This document shows positions 7,363-52,808 of a stretch of 64,000 nt of DNA, piece after piece. Position 1 is the first letter of the stretch. Each line of letters opens with the position of its first letter. The position numbers and the translations under genes were made by a program. Origin of the DNA: Halichondria panicea (Eukaryota > Porifera > Demospongiae > Suberitida > Halichondriidae); NCBI RefSeq assembly GCF_963675165.1, contig NC_087383.1, forward strand, positions 1,580,979-1,644,978, given 5' to 3'. The notes under the pieces were generated by a model. That model made no database searches and was not told the DNA's origin. It saw only the letters and a program-made list of their open reading frames with translations.

Positions 7363-10300
7363 ATGAAGACTTTAGGTATTTTAGTAGTACTCTATTTATT
7401 CACCATTAATGGCCTTTCTTCTGGAAGTCTTGAGAGACAGTAAGTTTGCTGTAACTAGGCCTGTAGCTAGTGTACTTTAATAGCTGGATCAAATGTGTAT
7501 TTTGTAGCAATGTATGGTATTGAATTGCTAGGACATATCTCCCATTAGTACATCAACTGTTTTCTCTTCCCCTACAGACGAATTGTAACTAACGAAGAGA
7601 ATGCCCTCTGCTGTGATAGAAACCCTGCAGTTTACTATCTTGAGGAAGGGGATTCCGATGGCTGGGTGATTTTCTTTGAGGGTGGTGGTGGCTGCTCCAC
7701 TGCACAAGAATGCAACGAACGTTATCTAAACAACAGTACTAGGATTCTTATGTCAGCAAAAAAGCTCACACAAAGCATTGAGGGAAAAGATTTGCTCTCA
7801 AATAATATGGAGGACAATCCTTTATTTCACGGTTTTACTCATGTTCTTGTGCCGTATTGCTCCCAAGATGCATTTTTGGCCAATAGTTCTCTACCAGTAG
7901 TAGACCTTGGGGACTCTAAGAATATCTCGTATGTGTTTAGAGGACGAGTGATACTGCAATCCATCATTCAAGACTTGTTGCCACTTGGTTTGAACAGCTC
8001 AAAACGTGTGGTACTCGCTGGAAGCAGTGCTGGTGGGGTTGGAATACTGAATAACCTGGAGTGGATAAAAGAACACCTAAGTCCCTCTGTTGAACTATCT
8101 CTTATCATCGATTCATCGTGGTTCATTCCATACAGTGGCTATCATGCCATTAACTTTTCATTGGAATATGCAAACTTTTACAACCTCGATCAGCCTGCTT
8201 GTCTCGATCACTCTCTTGGTTTCCCATGCTGCACCTCTCTTGCTTGTCTTCTAACAGATGACTCCATTCAGAGATCTCTTCCACACACATTCTTTGTCAC
8301 AAGTTTATTCGATATATTCACACTGGAGGAGAGCCTAAAGGACATTATTGAAATGTTGGATTTCTCGGCATCTGCGGAAATCAGTGATCAGGACTTTCTG
8401 CGAATGTTTAATACTTACGGTGCCCTCATGAACAGTACACTGTTGGACACCTTTGCTCATCGTAACAATCCAAATGTATCTGTTTTTGCACCATCTTGTA
8501 CTCAGCATGTTTTTCTTGCCACCTCTAGTCTCTGGGACGAAAATGGTCTTCTCAATGCCACTGTTGATGGAAGCTTCACAGAAGGTGTTTTCCGTTTGAC
8601 TAATCCTGTAAAAAGTGGCCAATGGAACTCAGTGAAGATAAATATGACCATCAATGAAACACGACACATCAGTTTACATGAAGCTCTTCAAAACTGGTAT
8701 AATGATAGCAAAAGCCAAGTGTTTTATGCTGACGTATGCAGAGGTCCGGCTTGTGGCGAGTGTCCCAGTACAATCAGGCTGGAATTTACCTATGACCTCT
8801 GGGCCAACGAAGCAATAATCGCTGTGCTTGTAGTCTCATCAGTAATGGCAGCCCTTCCACTATTTATCAAACTATTTCTCTACATGTATATGAAGTGTAT
8901 GCTCTATCGACAAAAGCTATACATCTATAACATAACTCGAACTCAAAAGAACAAGCCCAAGTTTCCAAAAGCTGTTCATGCTGTGAGTGTATCTTGTACA
9001 AATCTCTACTACCTTCTAGACACAACTGAGAACACTAACAAACCAGAATTGGAGCAAAATGAAGTAGCACACATACATGACAGTCATTATCGCCTGTCTG
9101 CATTTGCCAACACTGTTGTACCTTGCTGCAAGCCGTTGTGTTATCGCTACAATGCACCAGTAGGAGACAGTGAATGTGGAAAAGCTGGCAGTCCCACACA
9201 ACCAAACCCAACTTGCTTCAATGGTCTAAAATCAGATTCAGGCATCTCCTCGTCGAATGTGAGTCAGTCTATCAACAAGAGTTATAGCGATGCTACGAGT
9301 ATGGACTTAATAATTGAGTCTAGACCCAGTCCCGTTCACAAGCCACCCAAGAGCTCCTCCTCCTCCTCTTCGAGAAAGAAGAAGGTTATCCTACGCCAGG
9401 TGAACATGTACGTGAATCCGGGAGAGCTCCTGGCAATTATGGGACCATCTGGATCGGGCAAGACCACCCTACTGGACGTGATACTGGGGAGACGAAGGAC
9501 TGGACATGTGCAGGTAATTATACGTGTGATAAATGGTCGTGAATATCCTTTACATGTCGTTACAGTACTGAGGTGTATTTTGTGCAGCGTAGCTTTCCTT
9601 GATATGTCTAAATGTTGTATTCTCGTTGTTGTGGCTTGAATGTGGAATGTGCTGAATGCGTTGTAATTGTGATCTCCCTGTAAATTATATTATCCCATAT
9701 TTGACGGTGATATTGGAAGCTCTACAGTGTAAAGTGTGCATGTGATTACTTAAGTAATGGCCTGCTTGGGTGTTCTGTAATGGACTGTAAAGCACGAGGC
9801 TCCTGTCTCCATAATACATCTAGTCTGGGTTGCATAATTATTGCTTTTGTGGTTGATTTTACACCCCCACACATAAACACCACGATGTTGATTCTGCTCG
9901 CTCCAAATAACATCACACAGACACACAATATTGTCCATTGTCAATTTAATCAACAGCCCTTGAAGCACTGTAATTGTACTCGGGGAAGATGGCAAAGGAA
10001 TTTTCCTGATTAAATTACCACTTCCCTAGTTTGGTGCGAAACGTTTGCCAGCTGGGAATTGCTAACTCTGTTGACACTTGTTTAATTTACATGTTGGTGT
10101 TCTCAAGTGATAACGGCCACAAACACTTGAATTCCTAAAGGGATGTCATCACATGCCAACTCTATAAGGAACAAAACCTCTTGTGTGTTTATCCCATTAC
10201 ATTATGCATTCCGTACATGTAGCAGCCTGCTGCCATAGCAATGCTTTCTATTTCCTGTCTCCCTCCTGGTATAGTGTCTAAAGCTGAGAGCCACTCCCTC

Positions 10301-13300
10301 CCTTATATATACCCTCCTTGTCTGATAACTTAAAATTTAAAACTGCCAAGCTGTCTTATACATTCATCAATAATTTCTTGTTTACAGCGTTCCTAAGGCT
10401 CCCAATTTCTTATCTTACCATAATACGTTTGTCTCATTTAGAAGTAACAACAATACATTTGTGCTTCTCTTTGAATTTAACAAATAACTTAATTGTGCAA
10501 ACTTTTCTGCAGGGTGATATATATGTGAACGGCTCCCCATTAACAAAGATGAGAGACTGGTTTATCATGAACACTGGCTACGTGCGACAACTGGCCACCT
10601 CATTCTACAACGAGCTGACTATTCGAGAGAATCTTCTCTTCTCCATGAACATGCAAGCTCCAGTTGGTATGACTCTGACCCAAAAACTGGAACGTGTGGA
10701 GCAAGTCATCAGAGAGACTGGACTTCAAGAACAAGCAGACTTTGTAGTTGGTAGTGGGATAGGTCTCGGTCTAAGTGGAGGACAGGTGGGTTTGTATTAT
10801 ACACTAGTGTGGTTATTGTGCGTGGGGATGCATAGCAATCTTAGTTGACATACATCGTGATCTATTTTCTCTGAAATACTTTCAAAAGCTGTCAACATAA
10901 ACTGAAGCCTTGCTTGTTTAACAGTGTACATTCCTCTCCGTCCCATACAGCGCAAGAGATTGACGATTGCCGTTCAGTTGTTGAGTATGCCCAACATCAT
11001 ATTTCTGGACGAGCCTACATCAGGTGACAACCACTTAACCACCCACACACATGCTTTGTTACGCTAGTTTACTACATTGGTATGTGTAGCAATAAATACA
11101 GTTCTGTTCGTGTAATCACTTCCCCCACATTCTTCAAACCACCATCATTTGTGTTGTTATCATCACTGACAAACTCCACACTTGTATATACATGACAATT
11201 ATCATATGAGAGATTTGAGGTGATAGGGTACCAACAGTTAAGTTGATGGTACCCTATCACCTCAAATATGTGAGAGATCACCTCAAATCTCTCACAGCTG
11301 CATGTAGCATCATATATCCATCTCCACACACAACACACCAACACATCCTCGGTACCTCACACCTCACATACTCACACTCACATACCCACACCCACACACC
11401 CTCCCTCCCTCCCCTCCCCTCCCCTCCCTACCTCACACACCCTCCCTCCCTCACACCTCACACACTGTCACAGGCCTCGACTCGGCTTCCTCTCTGGACA
11501 TTCTAAAGAGCCTGCAAGTGATGGCTGGCACTGGCAGAGCCATTGTTGTGACTATTCACCAACCACGCTCTGAGATTTTTCACGCCTTTGACAAGATCCT
11601 GCTATTGTGCAAAGGACAAGTGGCATTCTTCGGTTCTCCGGTCAAAGTTTGGGATTTTTTCCAGAGGGCCATTATCAATGAAGAATTGGAGGTACCACAT
11701 TTGAAATTCAATGCTTGGTGTGCATGTTGGTGGTACTTTTTTAGACAATGATCTACATATTAGGAATCTGCCCCTCTATTCAGTACCAACCACAATCTCA
11801 CAAAGTACACAACCTCTCGCATCCTCTCTCTTACAGTAAATACCAGCAGCTGCATATGTGGGATGTTTTTTCCTAATGAATATTGTTAATTTTGATTGTT
11901 TACTAAAAAGCTATCTTGTTTATTGATATTTTATGTCCATTAGCTGTAATAGCACATTACCAAAATCCACTATGTTTCTGTGTCCATAATTATGTAGAAA
12001 CACGAGGGTCAAGTGCAGGACCAGATCTTGGACCATCTTAAGGAGAAGAAGTCACAGGACCAGGTGCTCAATGCCTACAACAAAAGTCTCGAGCCAAAGA
12101 AGGTCAAATCGGCTGTCCTGGAGGGTAGGGAGCACACTGATTCTGCACCCTCACCTATTTACAAGTAAGTCTGCCTGTGCAATATGGAAGACCAAATGCA
12201 TTCTCTGGGGACCCAGATGTTAGGAATCAAGTCTCCATTCACTATATGTTGTAGTAACAAGTCTCTAAGTACTGTTAATTAAAACTTCCCTCTGCATTAA
12301 ACCTCTGAAATGGCATGTATGTACATGTACTATATTTACTGTGTTTCTACGTCTACGCATGTACAGACGTGACCCTGGGCTCTGGCAAAGGCTTGTTTCA
12401 CTGGAAGCTAGGGCTTCACTGAGGCAAACCTTCTTCTCCATCATCTACCTTCCTGTAGTGTACACCGTGTTCGGGGCATTATTGGGTAAGTTTACTTGCA
12501 TTCTTGCATTCATTACCAAGTATCGTGTGTCCTGTGTATTCTTGCATTCATTACTAAGTATCGTGTGTCCTGTGTTTACATCATTTGCTCTTCCTTTTAT
12601 TGTGTACTAATTACAGGAATGCTATAACATACGTTGTGTATTAGGAGAATGCCTATAAGAGTTGTGTTTTCATGGTTGTGGCTGTGTGAAATATGTTATC
12701 TTAATGACCTATATGATTACAAATGTTTGCTCTCATTACTACAGGGACAACATATCTGAGAACGCAGAATCCCCTCCAAGTCATGTCCGTTACTTGTCTT
12801 CTCAGTTGCTCCAGCTCTCTCTTCATGAGCTCCATTGTCATGAGTCTACTGATTGAGCCCCTCAAACTATTCCAACTAGAACAATCAGACGGAGTGTCGA
12901 GATCGTACGAATTGATCTTACAAGTCTTCTTCAGAATGAGCTTTGTGGGGACCATACCACTATCCGTGTGTGCTACACTAGTCTTTGCTTTAGTCTACTT
13001 GCAAGAGGATTTCCAAGTGTATGTCATCGTTCTACTATCGTTTCTGCTCGTAAATCAAGTCTGGATTTCAATTTTTATTCTCCTAACGGTACTAGCTCCA
13101 TCTCAGGCCCATAGACTGTGTCCCGTCTTTGCAGCTGTTGGCGGTTTCTGGTGTGGATTCATCATCCCCAAACCTCTCATGCCTGACTACTACGAGTGGA
13201 TTTTCTATATCAACCCTTCGTATTATGCCTACTCTGCTACTAGTGTGACTGTACTCAACGGATTGGACCTGCAGTGCTCCAGAGCCTCAGAACTCGAGTG

Positions 13301-15166
13301 TTTCCGGTGAGTAGGCTGTAATTCATTGTATCTGTGAGCGTGTGGTTCTCCATTCATTAATAAAAAATTTATATAGGCACAAGGAAAACTGTTTGTTGCT
13401 ATAGCTACATGTATCTTGAGTTATGTATATACCTTGAGTTTAGAGCAATTACTTTTAATTCTTTTTGTAGCCTTTAGATATTTCAGTGATGTTAATTTTT
13501 GTGTTTTTTCACCTCTGCAGTACTTCAGGGTACGCTGTTCTGTCTCAGTTTGGCATATCTGATGTGAACCCTTTCTTCCACATGGTGATCTTGATGATCA
13601 TGACTTTTATCATTCTGCTACTGGCCGTGTCCGTGCTGCAGCTGAGAGTCTCACTCTCCCTCATTATCGAGCGCCTCAAGAACTGGCTCTACTCTTGCAA
13701 GAAGAGAAAGTGAGTTAGCCCTCCCCAATTGTGTTTTGTACAAGTTCTGGCAATGCAATTTTAATGACTGAAAGCTTAGAAAGAGCTCTTTCGTTTGGTA
13801 GGCCTTGAACAACCATTTACACATGTACCTATATCACCCAATTTATGTTTTTACTGTAAATAAGGCTAGCAGTAAGCATGATACTAGTTAAAGGAAACAA
13901 GCTTTCCACATGAGATGAGATTATGTGACAAGCTTTCGTAATTAGATGATTATATTACTTCCCACCTAACTGTGAATGTCTCCACCTCTACAGTAACACA
14001 GAGACCAAGATCTGCTCGTCAACTGACAACCTGAACGAAGTAGACACTCCACTGGCACTGAAGTCATTCAGGAGGAATCGTTTGCCGGGAGAGACAAAGG
14101 AGAGCATACAGCAAGCCCGCACAAATGCCTTATCTGCTACCTTATCCGCTGCCTTCATAGAGAGTAACACGCATCAGGTAAATTCAATAGTGGCCTAGTT
14201 TCTGTACTGTGCAGGCCGGCTACCTTGGCTCAGTTGCAATGTGTACTTAAGTAGAACGTGTACAGTATTAATTTAAAAGTGTATAAACTTATAGCAAAAA
14301 CTGTTCAGTAATCAAGGCTACTTTGGCGCAAATACATGTGTACTTAAGTAGAACGTGTACAGTTTAATTTGAGTTAAGTGCATAAACTTCTAACAAAAAC
14401 TGTTCAGGTCTCCCAGTAATCATCTGACACTTTTACTCTGCTACAGATCTACCACAATTTCCCATGGGAGAGGAATGTTTTGGAGGAGGCTGATGGCCTG
14501 GATGGCGGTGAACCCAACCTCTTCTCCCCCATCTCCTCAGGTTCAAGACGTTCTCGACTTGGATCCGACGGTAGTGAGAATGTGTTTGAGCCTCCAGAGT
14601 TAATCAGCATGTCTGTGACTGACGAAGAACATGACGAGGACATACGCAGGAAACAGGCAGAGCAGAAATGGGAGGCTCGTCGACTCAAGATTGAGACTGA
14701 GATAAGGAGACTTCGAGTGGCTAACATTCATCGGAAAGCAGCACTGAGACACAGTATAGCATCTTTTGGAGATGACTTAGAAGATCAGATATTCGATAGA
14801 CGAGAATCATCAATGCCTAGGAAACGCTATCTATCGACAGCCAACCAAATATCAGAGAACGGAACAAAAGGCCTTGAAATTGAAAAACCACCTGTAAGGA
14901 AAGAAAAACCACCTTTTATGAGAGCAATTAGTCTTCCTACAACGGGAGCCTTGTTTTCAAAGATGGCAGGTGTGCCTACGCTGGATACATACGAAGAAGA
15001 AGATGACGAAATGATGGACCTGCCCCCAAAAGACATTCCTCACTTGAGAGAGTCGATGGAACATATGGAGAAGATTGATTACGAGGACATACCTCCCCAA
15101 CAACTCAGTGCTGTGCCCTCCTCTCAAGAGAGCAATGGTAGCAGGTGGAGTGAACATGAGATATAG
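7363..15166 (+). CDS. NOTUM-like hydrolase fused to an ABCG half-transporter
   Basis: Eleven exons: 7363-7439, 7578-9513, 10513-10785, 10951-11023, 11474-11691, 11998-12164, 12367-12485, 12745-13306, 13521-13709, 13994-14177, 14447-15166. They total 4518 nt and encode 1505 residues. Order: signal peptide (1-22); NOTUM/pectinacetylesterase domain (about 30-400) with nucleophile motif GSSAGG (about 172), acid SLFDIF (about 267) and His in [10 protein letters not shown] (about 335), many N-glycosylation sites; one TM helix (about 436-460); cytosolic ABCG nucleotide-binding domain with [27 protein letters not shown] and TIHQPR; ABC2 membrane domain (about 915-1205); acidic tail of 300 residues. 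One uninterrupted exon (7578-9513) encodes both the whole hydrolase and the Walker A region, so the fusion is not a splice-model artefact. NOTUM removes palmitoleate from Wnt; ABCG transporters move lipids. A role in exporting and deacylating a lipid or lipoprotein is inference. Confidence 0.9.
9514..10512. other. Largest intron of the NOTUM-ABCG gene
   Basis: An intron of about 1 kb between the Walker A exon and the next NBD exon. No coding exon or repeat is evident. Confidence 0.5.
11208..11293. repeat. Nested foldback in the NOTUM-ABCG intron
   Basis: The arm gagagatttgaggtgatagg (11208 on) is complementary to 11246-11267. Part of it is complementary again to 11278-11293 (cctcaaatctctcac), giving a triple palindrome-like structure. 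Confidence 0.65.
11330..11473. repeat. CA- and CCCT-rich pyrimidine tract
   Basis: Low-complexity cacacc/ccctccc sequence forming the 3' part of an intron of the NOTUM-ABCG gene. The complementary strand is G-rich enough to form quadruplexes. Confidence 0.6.
12498..12577 (+). repeat. 39-bp tandem duplication in intron
   Basis: Two imperfect copies of a unit containing attcttgcattcattac.aa and gtatcgtgtgtcctgtgt, inside an intron of the NOTUM-ABCG gene. Confidence 0.7.
14218..14407 (+). repeat. Tandem duplication of about 95 bp in intron
   Basis: Copies at 14218-14308 and 14317-14407 share gtgtacttaagtagaacgtg and aaaaactgttcag with scattered differences. They lie in the last intron of the NOTUM-ABCG gene. 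Confidence 0.75.
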
Positions 15167-15362: not shown

Positions 15363-17324
15363 TTACTTCTTCTGGCACTCTGCCCGCACTTTGAGGTAGT
15401 CGTCCACATTCTCCGAAGATCCAATGAAGATGGGGGCGCGGTCATGAATGCTGACGGGTTGTATGTCCAGGATACTTTTGGTTCCAGTAGTAGACTTGCC
15501 ACCAGCCTTCTCAATAATGTAAGCCATTGGATTGCACTCATACTGGAGTCTCAGCTGTGCATGTGTGTGTGTGTGGGGGAGGAAGTGATTAGAAGGATGT
15601 GGGAAAACATGACAGTGTGTGTGTGCATACAATATGTCTCTTTCAAGGGCTGTAATAAATTATTAGTACTCTAATTAAGTGACAGCCATGTGGACTGAGC
15701 TACAAAGAAATAGCAAAACTGGAAGGTTTACAATTAAGGGCTGTAATGGGAGAATTTAATTTTCCTGATCTGGCAATACCTAGAAAAGCTACATTGCCTA
15801 TTTTAGGGTGCCAGGACAGACATTAAATTTTATTCAACTATAACGCACCACAAGCTGATACGCTAGTATAACACTAACCCCAACCCACCTTTCCCTTTGG
15901 GCTCTTGGTAGAGGCAGGGTACATAAAGATTCCACCATAGAGGAGAGTGCGATGCAGATCAGCTACCATGGAACCGACGTATCGAGCACCCATGGGAGCC
16001 TTCCCGTCCTTGGGGAACTTGCACTGACGGACATACTCTGTGGCAGACTCGTCCCAGTACTGTGCGTAGCCCTCGTTGATGGAGAATATATTGCCCCTCG
16101 GAGGTACCCTGATGTTAGGATGGGTCAGTACAAACTCTCCAATAGACTGGAGGGAGGGGGGGGGGGGGGAGAGAAAGAAACACAAAATTGTCATTTCAAT
16201 AGGACTACTAGATAGAGTATTATACACAGAAATATAGATCTACTACTGTGTTAAGCTAGATTTAGAATTACTCAATCAAAACTCTTTAAGAGGATTTTTC
16301 CTTTACCAAACGATTAATAAACTCACAGGGTCAAGGGTGAATCCATTAACAAGCTCTCCAGTGCACAACACGATCATGGTGGCACTGCCATACAGGGCGT
16401 ATCCACCGGCAACCATCTCCCTACCAGACTGGAGGAGGTCAGCTTCACACGCCGGACCTTCACATACCTGCAAAATTAGACAGTCTGATAATTCAACCTC
16501 CACTACCTACTGAAGCCTGATAGAGGAAGCTATTATAAGTGCATTCAGCAATGGCTTCTGGCTCAAATAACATGCGCAGCATTGTGACAAAAAGATGCAC
16601 TAGCTACCGTCAGGAACTCCTGCTATATACCGTACAAGGAGGTTATGAGATTTCACACACCTTTTTCCAAATTCCAAAGATGGAGCCAATGGAGACCAGA
16701 CAGTCAATGTTGGAGGAGCCGTCCAGGGGGTCAAAGGACACGACGTACTTGCCACGTTCGGCTGCAGGCACTTCAATGCACTTTTCGTTCTCCTCAGACA
16801 CCATCACACCGACCTGAGCACAGTACAGCGTGTACACAGTATGTGAAGGGGCGGGGTATTATTGTCAATAAACTCACTTCAAAGGAAGACTTGAGCATAT
16901 TGATGAACAGGTCGTTGGCGAGGACGTCCAGTTTCTTTTGCTCCTCTCCTTGCACGTTGGTGCCTCCTACAGCTGTACCCCTGTATCAGATAAAGAGGTA
17001 ATTACAATTGTGAGAAAATTCATTAAGGAGCTATTAATAGAGCTACTATTAAATTGCAAAAAACAATCACATCTAGCTATTTAACTGTTAATGTTGTATG
17101 CATGAATATCTTTATCTACACAGTTAGTTACAAATATCAGCTTACAGTTTAGCAAATCCAGCCTTGCGCACTGCAGTGGAGATGGCTTTGATTGCAGTGA
17201 GGAGGGAATTGAGCAGCAGGGTCAGGCTGCCTGTAGCTCCTTTGATCTTGCGTTGCTCTGTCAACACGAACCGTGTCAGAGTCATTGTGTCCGAAGCTAT
17301 CCCGTCCATATCTCCACTGGCCAT
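15363..17324 (-). CDS. FBP1: Fructose-1,6-bisphosphatase
   Basis: Six exons on the minus strand: 17146-17324, 16878-16980, 16661-16813, 16327-16467, 15889-16146, 15363-15554. They total 1026 nt and encode 341 residues, the normal length. Seen: the N-terminal [13 protein letters not shown] region; [20 protein letters not shown]; the metal/substrate motif [71 protein letters not shown]; and the C-terminal [19 protein letters not shown]. The enzyme dephosphorylates fructose-1,6-bisphosphate in gluconeogenesis in the cytosol. AMP-site residues at the N-terminus look conserved ([11 protein letters not shown]). The reading frame is intact. It is convergent with the NOTUM-ABCG gene (196 bp between stops). 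Confidence 0.95.
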
Positions 17325-48439: not shown

Positions 48440-51400
48440 TTACAGCAGTGTTCTCAACAGTTTGAAAGGGATGCAACCCTTCGACAGCACACGATCATGA
48501 AACTCTTTCAGAGTGAATTCTTCCCCGTGACTCCTCCTCATTTCCTCCCTCAGTTGCATGATCATTACATAGCCCGCAACGTAGCAAGGAGCATAGCCAG
48601 GCCGAGACAAATACATGAATACCTCCCCCTCACTGGCCCCCTCGTTGAACATAACCTCCCTGTGCAAAAACTCTCGACACTCGTCAACGTTCATTTCTCC
48701 GAGGTTCAACTTAGCGTCTAAAATCACTCTAGCTGCTCGCCATAGCCTGAGTCGTAACTGTGTTAGTCTCGTCAGCTGCTCAAATTGTTCGGACGATAAC
48801 TTCTTCACCTCATTTGTAACCTCCTCGACATACTCTAGTTCTCGTTTGAAGAATCCCGTCTCGTATGCAAGCTCTTCAGTATACAGTCCCCATCCCTCGT
48901 AGAACAGAATAGACTCGTGATATTTTCTCAGAACTCTAGGATGCATTTGAGCGAGCAAGGCTTGAACATGGTGACCAGGGTACGACTCGTGCGGTGAGAC
49001 GACAGATATCCAGCAATAATCGTGACCTCTGAGTAGAGCTTGGTGGGTTTCAGGAGGGCGGGCAGCAATCGAATGGAGCATTAGGTGACCAACTCGTTTG
49101 GGAGGGGTTGAGCTGGACATTCCGGCAAACGGAGATGGGTTAAGATAGTCACCTACTGGTGAGAATGGGGTTAAAAACGAAGGGGTTGTGAAGCCATGCA
49201 CACATTCGCCTTGTGGGAGGTCCGATACAAGGTCATGTGACATCATGTGATCTCGTGCTCGATGAATCTCAGCCATGTAGGTGGGCAACAGATCCTTGGC
49301 CGATGGGTGTAGAGGGTTGATAAGTGTCTTTGTTAACTCTTGCCAGGTTTTACTTGGGTCAATCTTTTTGGCCAAAATCTCCAACTCGGTTTTTACGGCC
49401 TCAAAGTGCTTTTCTCCTAGTCTCAATAGGTCATCACTGCTCTCAATGAAGTGGCTGTATCGCAGAATGTCTGAATATACCTCTTTTCCAACACCTGTCA
49501 TACTTGAGCTTTTGGGTAGCAGCTCCTTTGAAAGATAATGTCCAAACGATTCGACACACTTGGCTGCAACTTTGGAGGTAATTTCGATCTCATTAATGAT
49601 GTCTTTGTCAGTACCTCCACTCATAGCAACACAAAGTGGGACAACCTCAGTGGCAAGAAAAGTAGCAAATGATCCGCAAATCTTGATAGCAGTTTCCACA
49701 AATGCCTTGACAGATAGTGTGAGGTTACGATGTGCACAGATGAGGGCACTTGGAATAGCTTGTAGCCGTGAGAGCAACGCAGACAATCGCTGACCAACGT
49801 CCATATCGGCAACTCCAGGGTGGGTGTGTTCTTCTATACTGAACTTTGAACTCTCATTTTCGTCTCCCCAGACTGGAAGTAGATAGAGAATCGAGTTTAG
49901 AGGGAGATAAACGAGTGGGTCTTTCTTGTGACTCTCGACTTTTTGAAAAAGAACAAGTTGTAGCTTTAGCTGTGAAATGATGAGCTGAAGATCGACCAGC
50001 TGTTCTTTGGACAGAGCATCTTCGTTTATTGCTTCTGCTTCTTCGAGTACACATTGCGTTCGTTTGCAGTGAGTATTGATTTCGGTTGGAGACACAATAT
50101 CTGTGAGATGATCGTAGGAGGTTGTCTTGGCAGCAACGAGGGAGTGTTGGTCAGTAGAGGTGGGGGCAGGGAGTCTGTAACCAGTGCGAGTGGCCTCCGT
50201 GGGGTAAGCCGAGAAGTGGAGCTGAAGGTACCTGTAAAGGAGAGGGACATTGTGTATGCATGTATTGTGTGATCATTATTACATTGTATTCGAGTCATTT
50301 GGGCCTACTACATCTGTAGCTCAACAACACACACAAATAAAAATAGTGGAACCCCTCTTAACGGCCACTGGTCAACTGCAATGTATATGCCAGCCACCCA
50401 GGTCCAGTTTAGGTACAAAACACCCCGGCCCTCAACAAAGGCCACTCTACAACAATTTTGTTCTCCAAAGGTGTTCGTAATAAGGGGATTCTGCTGTAAA
50501 ATGAATTCTCCAAGCTACCACGCAGCTAGACTAATACCTGTGACACAGCTCCTCTACATGCTCTGCCATGTTCAGTTTGTTGAGTGTGTACTTCATGATT
50601 CTCCCGTGTGCCCCAGACACCTCCCTCTCCAGCCCGTAAACTGGTCCCTTTAGCCCGGAGGACAGGGACAGAACACTCTCAATGTCAGCTAGGTCCTCGG
50701 GGAGCAGCCTCAGTTGAGTGGATGCAAGTGTCGAGGGCAAATGTCTGTAGACGAGACATTAACTGTAATTATGGCACGAAGATAAATGATCTTCACTGGC
50801 TATCTTTGAGCATCCGTGATACGAATTTAAAGCAATGCTGCTACAGTACATGTAGGTGGTGTATGTGTGTGTAGAGCTATGATATGAGGTCACCTGTTGT
50901 CGTGAGCACCAATGATGACTCCACCCACAGCTTCCTGTGTCAGTACGTACTGAATGGCCACCATTGCTATGGTAACTGCCGAGCCATGTCTGTCTGCGAT
51001 TACGCGCAGTGTTTGTAGCAGCTTCTGGAACAAGGTCCAACCTCCAAACTCCTCAATGATGAGCAGGTACTTGACTAGACTCCTATTCGCAAGATCCTAT
51101 GTATGTATGAGAATAGATGTACAGAAAATATACTTTATTTTCTGTCAGTCACTAACTTTTTTCATATAACCACACAATGTTACAGTAACAAAATTTGCCC
51201 AAATTGATTGTTTTTATACGTACCTCAATGCTTGGTCTTGGGGACCTTAGCCAGCGATCTGTCAGAAATCCTCCAGCCAGAACACCATAGGGCAGTATCT
51301 TGATACCATGCTCTTTGCACAGGGAGACAAGTCCAGAGCTTAGTGGCCGACGATCAATCAGGGAAAACTGCACCTAAAATGGAGAAATATTGATTATAGC

Positions 51401-52658
51401 GATCTTTGCAGGACATTCAGATCCTAGCAAAACCTTAGCTCTGATTCTCTGAACATGCTCAGTAAAAAAAGGAAAATTGCACCGGTTACTCTACCTGAGT
51501 TGTTGCTATAGGGACTCCACTGGTTACAATCTGCATAGTAGTCTCTGTGTCGAAGTTTAATACTCCCAGCTGTTTCACCATTCCCTCTTTGACACACTGG
51601 TAGAGATGTTTCGCCGCATCTATACAGCCGGGCACGCTCATATCCCACCAATGGATTTGCAGCAAACTCAGACAATCGATACTGAGGCGATTCAACGATC
51701 GACGCACACACGATCTCACATAATGCTCACTCACTCCGCCAGATTGAATAATATCCAAATCAGGCACAAACTTAGTGTGAATGTGTACATCAGGGTCCCT
51801 TCCCTCTCGCAGCCTGAGGGAATTAATCAGTCGTCCGTACAGCCATTCAACTCCAGTGTAGATGTCTCCACAATCAAATGCACACACACCAGCATCGTAC
51901 GTTTTCAGGAGGTTAGCAAGCTTAAGAGTGACAGACGTTTTTTCCTTCGCTTCATTGATCACATGACCAGTCGACAACTGCCACCCCCCTTGGATGATCT
52001 GAGAGCACTTGTAAAGATTTGTGGACTTTGCTCCAACAGTGAACACAGAAACTTTTGGGTACAATCTCAAGAAGAGAAGATAGTGAGTTGTCATCAGCCT
52101 TCCAATGTAGTCAGGATTTTTAAAATCACAGGCTTTCTTTAAGTGCTCTTCTGCTTGTTGTAGTGCACCTATCAATTCGTGGTAGATCCCGATGTAGAAA
52201 TGAGCATAGGCCAATGCATTAGCGCCGTTGTAACTTTGTAACGGAGTTCCGTCTTGGTCGATTGCGGCTGTTAGAACATTTTCCACTGAACAGTCTCCCT
52301 TGTAGAGCTTCAGCACTTGCGGCATTGGAGGGAGAGTTGATAGGGAGTCTTGACTCGGTCTTAGCTGAAGAAAACCATCTTGTTTTGCTGCATCATAGCC
52401 AGTCTTCTTCGCACGACTAATAAAATGCCATAAAACCTCTTCGATATCAGATCCATTCTCAGTCATGTTACTTTCAAACTGCAGAGCTGCATTGTCGTAA
52501 TGACCCTTGTAAACACATGCCAGACCTCTCTGCCACAAGCTTGGGTTGTGCATCCCTGGAGACAGGCACAGAGCCGCATCCAGTGCCCACAGAGACTTGC
52601 TGAGCTCTCCTTGCAGCAGGCATTCTCCACCCAGCTTTGTCAGTGACTCAACATCCAT
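48440..52658 (-). CDS. TPR + aldo-keto reductase + DUF885 peptidase-like fusion
   Basis: Five exons on the minus strand: 51495-52658, 51224-51373, 50894-51096, 50538-50744, 48440-50231. They total 3516 nt and encode 1171 residues in one frame. Residues 1-200: TPR-like helices (LWALDAALCLSPG, LWQRGLACVYKGHYDNAALQ, YGIYHEL-type repeats). Residues 230-590: aldo-keto reductase (DAGVCAFDCGDIYTGVEWLY, VHIHTKFVPDLD, LLQIHWWDMSVPG, KILPYGVLAGGFLTDRW, VYGLEREVSGAHGRIMKYTL). Residues 600-1171: DUF885 family with SVVSPHESYPGHHVQ and FYEGWGLYTEELAYE, a gluzincin-like HExxxH/E pair. The DUF885 exon has no in-frame ATG near its start and its acceptor phase fits the AKR exon (CHR|YLQLHF). Without that splice the AKR would end two codons later at HRY-stop. 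Function unknown. Confidence 0.7.
50346..50498. mobile_element. Decayed pogo-type MITE in the AKR-DUF885 intron
   Basis: Ends tagtggaacccctcttaacg and taaggggattctgctgta form an imperfect inverted repeat with TA at the outer edges. Internal sequence is unlike the other pogo MITEs here. Confidence 0.55.
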
Positions 52659-52808
52659 TCTCCAGCAGCAACTGCCAAGGACATGAAGAATTGAGCTAGC
52701 TAGCATGTGCTGTACAAGCCCTGCCCCCCTTCAAGACACATTCAAGACCACATGGAAGGAGCAAAAGTCAAAAAGTGAAAGCCAAAAAAAGAACCAAGCC
52801 TGCATTCG
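52659..52808. promoter_or_regulatory. Shared divergent promoter, TPR-AKR-DUF885 / CMTR2
   Basis: 150 bp between divergent start codons. Longer N-termini are possible on both sides (a Met at 52706 minus would extend the fusion gene; the CMTR2 start is the first ATG in phase). Confidence 0.4.

Follow-up and report, generated by a model that had tools for sequence, protein, structure and literature searches.

We analyzed a 64,000-nucleotide stretch of Halichondria panicea contig NC_087383.1 (the window), in which one gene on the forward strand joins a NOTUM-like hydrolase to an ABCG-type ATP-binding cassette (ABC) transporter. Rebuilt from the window, this gene runs from an ATG at 7363 to a stop codon ending at 15166, and its 11 exons form a single frame of 1505 amino acids with 0 internal stops and 10 of 10 introns of the GT-AG type. 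The initial annotation had described one open exon of 1.9 kb carrying the hydrolase, a transmembrane helix and the Walker A motif; this agrees with exon 2 (7578-9513, 1936 bp), which is fully open and also encodes the linker. The features are given below, where residue counts refer to an alignment of the window protein with 25 of the 32 fused proteins described in a later section (26 rows) or, if so stated, to a 15-row alignment.

7363..15166 (+): whole coding gene, 11 exons, 1505 aa, aligned with 14 homologs over hydrolase, nucleotide-binding domain (NBD) and transmembrane domain (TMD)
7363-7439, 7578-9513, 10513-10785, 10951-11023 (+): exons 1-4, GT-AG borders, single frame
11474-11691, 11998-12164, 12367-12485, 12745-13306 (+): exons 5-8, GT-AG borders, single frame
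13521-13709, 13994-14177, 14447-15166 (+): exons 9-11, GT-AG borders, single frame
7363..7439 (+): hydrophobic, signal-peptide-like N-terminus with start codon (exon 1), recognized by eye and under the hydropathy threshold
7582..8790 (+): NOTUM/PAE alpha/beta-hydrolase ectodomain of carbohydrate esterase family 13 (CE13), residues 28-430
8026..8028 (+): predicted catalytic Ser176 (GSSAGG), 25/26 rows
8311..8313 (+): predicted catalytic Asp271, 26/26 rows
8506..8508 (+): predicted catalytic His336, 26/26 rows
8812..8868 (+): single transmembrane helix, residues 438-456, then a K/R-rich stretch (positive inside); hydropathy 2.65, helix 436-479 in the structure model
8926..9375 (+): cytosolic linker, residues 476-625; identity to P0242 95/146, to P0259 96/145
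9442..9465 (+): Walker A GPSGSGKT, residues 648-655, within exon 2
10771..10785 (+): ABC signature LSGGQ, residues 758-762
10996..11016 (+): Walker B, residues 778-784 (LDEP 781-784)
11557..11559 (+): H-loop His815, invariant in 15 rows
12367..13709 (+): ABCG-type membrane domain (exons 7-9), PF01061, last hydrophobic segment 1163-1181
13275..13301 (+): C-x3-S-x3-C motif of an extracellular loop, residues 1132-1140
13994..15166 (+): C-terminal tail of about 300 aa, cytosolic

Domains of the encoded protein

Pfam assigned residues 28-348 to PAE (PF03283; E 3e-46, 158.6 bits compared to a curated cut-off of 26.6). The closest PDB relative of the ectodomain was human NOTUM (E 4.5e-29). Fold comparison and alignment together point to a NOTUM-type alpha/beta-hydrolase with the Ser-Asp-His triad. 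Three cysteines immediately N-terminal to the transmembrane helix are kept in all 26 rows. Identity between the window protein and the two related frames P0242 and P0259 was 295/403 and 280/387 in the hydrolase, 26/45 and 34/45 in stalk plus helix, and 43/46 each at the NBD start; by these counts, conservation of the linker is only modestly below that of the hydrolase.

The second half of the protein carries ABC_tran (PF00005, residues 631-786, E 1e-28) and ABC2_membrane (PF01061, residues 935-1122, E 1e-10), both over their curated cut-offs. As in the ABCG subfamily, the NBD precedes the ABC2 membrane domain, and Walker A, Q-loop (Q697), LSGGQ, Walker B and H-loop are intact; the 15-row alignment shows no change in the core residues of Walker A, LSGG, LDEP and the H-loop. 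The structure model of the homolog P0047 matches ABCG folds over about residues 477-1070 (~530 residues) and contains an ABCG-type helix set after the NBD. The initial annotation's claim that all ATPase motifs and the Ser-Asp-His residues are present was thus borne out for every residue named above.

It had also proposed a topology with signal peptide and glycosylated hydrolase outside, one transmembrane helix, the NBD inside and a six-helix membrane domain. The single helix and the two ABC domains were recovered, and 12 of the 20 sequons lie within residues 23-440. By eye, the N-terminus of the window protein resembles a signal peptide, but it stayed under the hydropathy threshold, which those of P0001, P0004, P0010 and P0047 exceeded; 5 of the 6 expected TMD helices were over the threshold.

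The last extracellular loop bears the motif C-x3-S-x3-C in 16 of the 17 animal rows that could be evaluated (of 19 given) and in 9 of 10 such rows of a group containing brown algae (of 11 given; the algal group), compared to 0 of 61 such rows of other ABCG/PDR proteins (of 107 given). A second motif, E-x2-D-G, was uninformative, being present also in 13 of the 61 other ABCG/PDR rows. The part of the tail encoded by the last exon (14447-15163) gave no Pfam match. By eye, a basic stretch of the tail (14447-15166) resembles parts of the tails of other animal members in the 15-row alignment and is possibly a conserved regulatory motif.

Occurrence of the joined architecture

Searching with the full protein gave 42 proteins; 15 of them combine PF03283 with at least one ABC domain. 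They include three proteins of the coral Oculina patagonica and proteins of the sponges Corticium candelabrum, Oopsacas minuta (a glass sponge) and Ephydatia muelleri. A search with the alignment added 12 fused proteins among the 120 listed of 372 matches, three of them from Ectocarpus brown algae. When the ABC part was used as query, five more appeared among the 120 listed of 7905 matches. These five comprise the exon-2-like frames P0242 and P0259 (67% identity), P0165 (98% over the matched ABC part and probably from this species or a near one), one Em protein (EukProt) and one metagenome protein. In total, at least 32 fused proteins were listed, which are partly redundant; the algal label of rows other than Ectocarpus rests on their grouping with Ectocarpus. 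The initial annotation had left open how widespread this architecture is, which can now be answered in part: it occurs in sponges, a coral and brown algae and is not confined to one genome. Closely numbered locus tags on one 24-Mb contig of Oculina patagonica (ACROYT_G036176, G036177, G036181, G036183) point to fused or related genes arranged in tandem.

The pairing of PF03283 with ABC Pfam domains is already visible in precomputed annotation, and the named records of fused proteins read hypothetical, uncharacterized, unknown, unnamed or ABC transporter domain-containing. Among the open-licence papers listed, none was recognized as describing the fusion. PMC3091767 and, where it was consulted for PAE/Notum terms, PMC10903042 name PAE and ABC proteins separately and not as a fusion.

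The genome to which the window belongs (131 Mb on 39 contigs) was also scanned and contains two more PAE-ABCG fused genes, about 54 kb apart on contig C9:

C9, ~3.73-3.74 Mb (L009 with L013): PAE-ABCG fusion
C9, ~3.78-3.80 Mb (L012 with L014): PAE-ABCG fusion, hydrolase split over several exons

The paralog own_C9b groups with Ephydatia P0011 in a quick tree (support 98), which suggests a demosponge. Two stand-alone PAE genes with a YCDGASF stretch lie on the same contig at 5.26 and 5.75 Mb (L010 and L011), with no significant ABC match within the 9.9 kb examined. L011 has GCSAGG; the corresponding place in the L010 piece reads GCSGELL, perhaps owing to an exon end.

These data bear on the possibility that two adjacent genes were merged by a wrong gene model, which we regard as very improbable. 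It might be entertained because the model was derived from sequence alone and exon 2 can be read into intron 2: the open reading frame 7549-9639 (+) continues the exon 2 frame for 126 bases into the intron, and the P0165 record is this read-through form. However, hydrolase, transmembrane helix and Walker A share one exon, the joined stretch recurs in records of other origin, P0165 (98%), P0242 and P0259 (67%), and full fused proteins were annotated independently. A chance fusion or gene-model error was therefore rejected on the basis of the shared exon 2, the independent fused homologs and the two fused paralogs. Retention of intron 2 would yield a membrane-anchored hydrolase without a full ATPase.

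At the level of sequence, it is shown that the gene has one frame encoding complete domains with kept catalytic and ATPase residues, and that the joined architecture is conserved in animals and the group containing brown algae. The initial annotation's central claim, a NOTUM-like hydrolase and an ABCG transporter in one polypeptide, is corroborated by the gene model, by full-length homologs, by comparison of folds and by the conservation of residues.

Possible functions and origin of the fused protein

ABCG transporters are exporters of sterols, lipids and hormones, and enzymes of the NOTUM family remove acyl groups from signals. With moderate confidence, we favor a membrane-anchored, single-chain transporter for "export and trim", in which an ABCG half-transporter carries a NOTUM-fold serine esterase outside the cell on an extra N-terminal transmembrane helix. 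The esterase would face the outer side of the cell. ABCG proteins work as homo- or heterodimers, and with one NBD and one TMD the chain would have to pair; the dimer would bear two esterase heads per pore. Through the TMD, an acylated lipid or small lipidated molecule would reach the outer leaflet. As this cargo emerges, the esterase would cut off an ester-linked acyl or acetyl group, making release one-way. Such coupling of lipid export to deacylation at the outer face is plausible, and the substrate is probably not Wnt alone.

The main rival is that the ABC part serves as an anchor or a separate pump and that the esterase acts independently of transport on matrix glycans, lipids or ligands at the surface; we consider this rather unlikely. 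The length of the linker, its somewhat lower conservation and the walls of brown algae would fit a simple tether. So would the fact that CE13 relatives include pectin acetylesterases acting on wall glycans, as stated in PMC5465549. In contrast, the junction has persisted in lineages very distant from each other and both the three cysteines before the helix and the TMD loop motif are conserved, which suggests that the two halves work together.

NOTUM is a free, secreted, single-domain palmitoleoyl-protein carboxylesterase, whereas the window protein is tethered by a transmembrane helix and continues into a transporter. Plant pectin acetylesterases (CE13, PF03283) have the Pfam family and triad in common with the fusion, which differs in having GSSAGG instead of the plant GCSxG, in lacking NxayDxwQ (plant motifs from PMC5465549) and in its ABCG half. 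The ABCG half-transporters ABCG1, ABCG2, ABCG5/8, AtABCG16 and AtABCG25 share the order of NBD before TMD, the ATPase motifs and, in the P0047 model, the fold; the fusion adds the N-terminal helix, the enzyme ectodomain, the long linker, C-x3-S-x3-C and the cytosolic tail. Yeast Adp1 and plant ABCGs of the ABCG24/28 type have the same order of ectodomain, transmembrane helix, NBD and TMD, but no hydrolase is known to us among their ectodomains. None of the 120 listed of the 7905 relatives of the ABC part bears the name Adp1, ABCG24 or ABCG28. Enzyme-bearing ABC transporters exist in other forms. Bacterial peptidase-containing ABC transporters (PCATs) resemble the fusion as exporters with a built-in cargo-processing enzyme, but this is a cytosolic C39 peptidase on an ABCB-like core and acts before export.

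Following the Wnt link hinted at in the initial annotation, the protein might be a membrane-tethered sponge Notum that deacylates Wnt. In this genome, Wnt-family exons were found on three contigs, a human NOTUM fragment matched the window exon best (39%), and the genome-wide search with that fragment found no separate NOTUM, although exons can be missed in this way. A Wnt role may therefore exist in this species. Against it stands the glass sponge Oopsacas minuta, which reportedly has neither wnt nor wntless (PMC10280926, PMC5684314) and whose protein P0010 has kept the fusion, the triad and the ATPase motifs. Hydrolase-TM-ATPase proteins are also present in Ectocarpus, and PMC5797367 calls the Wnt pathway uniquely metazoan. 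In the 26 rows, the position of NOTUM Gln343, an active-site or pocket residue according to PMC5465549, is Gln in none. The PDB further holds a complex of NOTUM with ghrelin (6zyf), so the NOTUM fold is not tied to Wnt. The position of Trp128, a pocket or active-site residue of NOTUM, is Gly in 23 rows, Ser in 1 and a gap in 2. The changes at Trp128 and Gln343 and the Oopsacas and Ectocarpus proteins weaken the Wnt reading and make a tethered Notum improbable. Wnt deacylation as the main role was given a lower rank because of the occurrence in Oopsacas and Ectocarpus, and the presence in Oopsacas argues against it being the only role.

As a further alternative, the ectodomain could be a non-catalytic, lipid-binding gate that passes cargo to or from the pore. 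Such a gate would be consistent with two ectodomain stretches that are of low confidence in the structure model and with the loss of the nucleophile in one homolog, P0170. Retention of the triad in nearly all aligned animal and algal-group rows, however, would not be explained by selection for binding alone, and we judge a gate to be quite improbable, more so than a tethered Notum.

With respect to origin, a quick tree joined the animal and algal-group fusions with a support of 88. In a tree of NBD plus TMD, which included no ABCG1/2/5/8 rows, the animal and algal-group rows together with P0176 were set apart from 21 fungal and plant ABCG/PDR halves (100/99); the p value of the approximately unbiased (AU) test for the animal and algal-group rows alone was 0.241. 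A quick, unrooted hydrolase tree with three stand-alone rows placed 27 fused rows on one side (93). Prokaryotic relatives of stand-alone PAE that could serve as outgroup were not found in a scan of genome contigs, which detects close relatives only. A single origin of the animal and algal-group fusions seems likely.

Several observations weigh against the proposed transporter. A simple tether would look the same as coupled activities. P0170 has GSGTGG and is the sole exception for Ser176 in the 26 rows. Among the seven fused proteins outside the alignment, a pattern check found the nucleophile motif in 5/7 and the His motif in 5/7; P0012, P0051 and P0166 miss one or both, P0012 and P0166 being visibly broken gene models. 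For P0047 and P0013, ABC2_membrane gave no Pfam match even at E 0.1, and their membrane domain is based on alignment and the P0047 model. The three Ectocarpus models stop 78-159 residues past Walker B, so that their stored forms consist of hydrolase, helix and ATPase without a membrane domain; other members of their group extend further, 10 of 11 examined having ~430-700 residues beyond Walker B. No PAE is listed among the Pfam domains of the animal rows P0161-P0164, P0167 and P0168, so that not every animal row is a proven fusion. P0176, which lies inside the ABC group nearest the animal fusions, has no hydrolase in its stored sequence and has kept the helix before the NBD. These seven are either partial models or unfused genes. 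A careful NBD-only tree did not resolve animal, algal and PDR groups (AU p 0.316 with P0176, 0.228 without). In the hydrolase tree the 17 animal rows were not one group: two changes are required, the window's group of five being separate from the remaining twelve.

We put forward tentatively, as a possibility less probable than the transporter itself, an ancient and as yet unnamed ABCG subfamily whose members would export and ester-hydrolyse an acylated molecule within one protein. Its genes would have been fused before animals and stramenopiles split, or transferred a single time from one to the other. Sponges, cnidarians and brown algae would have retained them, this sponge with a multiplication to three copies, whereas many other lineages would have lost them. 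If so, this would be, to our knowledge, the first case of a eukaryotic transporter completing the chemistry of its own cargo at the outer face. The joined protein offers a directly testable eukaryotic case of coupled export and processing, and since it exists in an animal reported to lack Wnt, it bears on roles of the NOTUM fold apart from Wnt.

Other genes in the window

Fructose-1,6-bisphosphatase-like exons, recognized by eye, lie in convergent orientation just 3' of the fusion gene (15363-16239, minus strand). The open frame 51489-52730 (-) contains a TPR-like stretch (PF07719, under the cut-off) and an aldo/keto reductase domain (PF00248, E 2e-26) and is possibly another fusion. A 610-residue DUF885 frame (E 6.1e-69) is located at 48443-50272 (-); this family is described as bacterial and occurs here in a probably animal genome.

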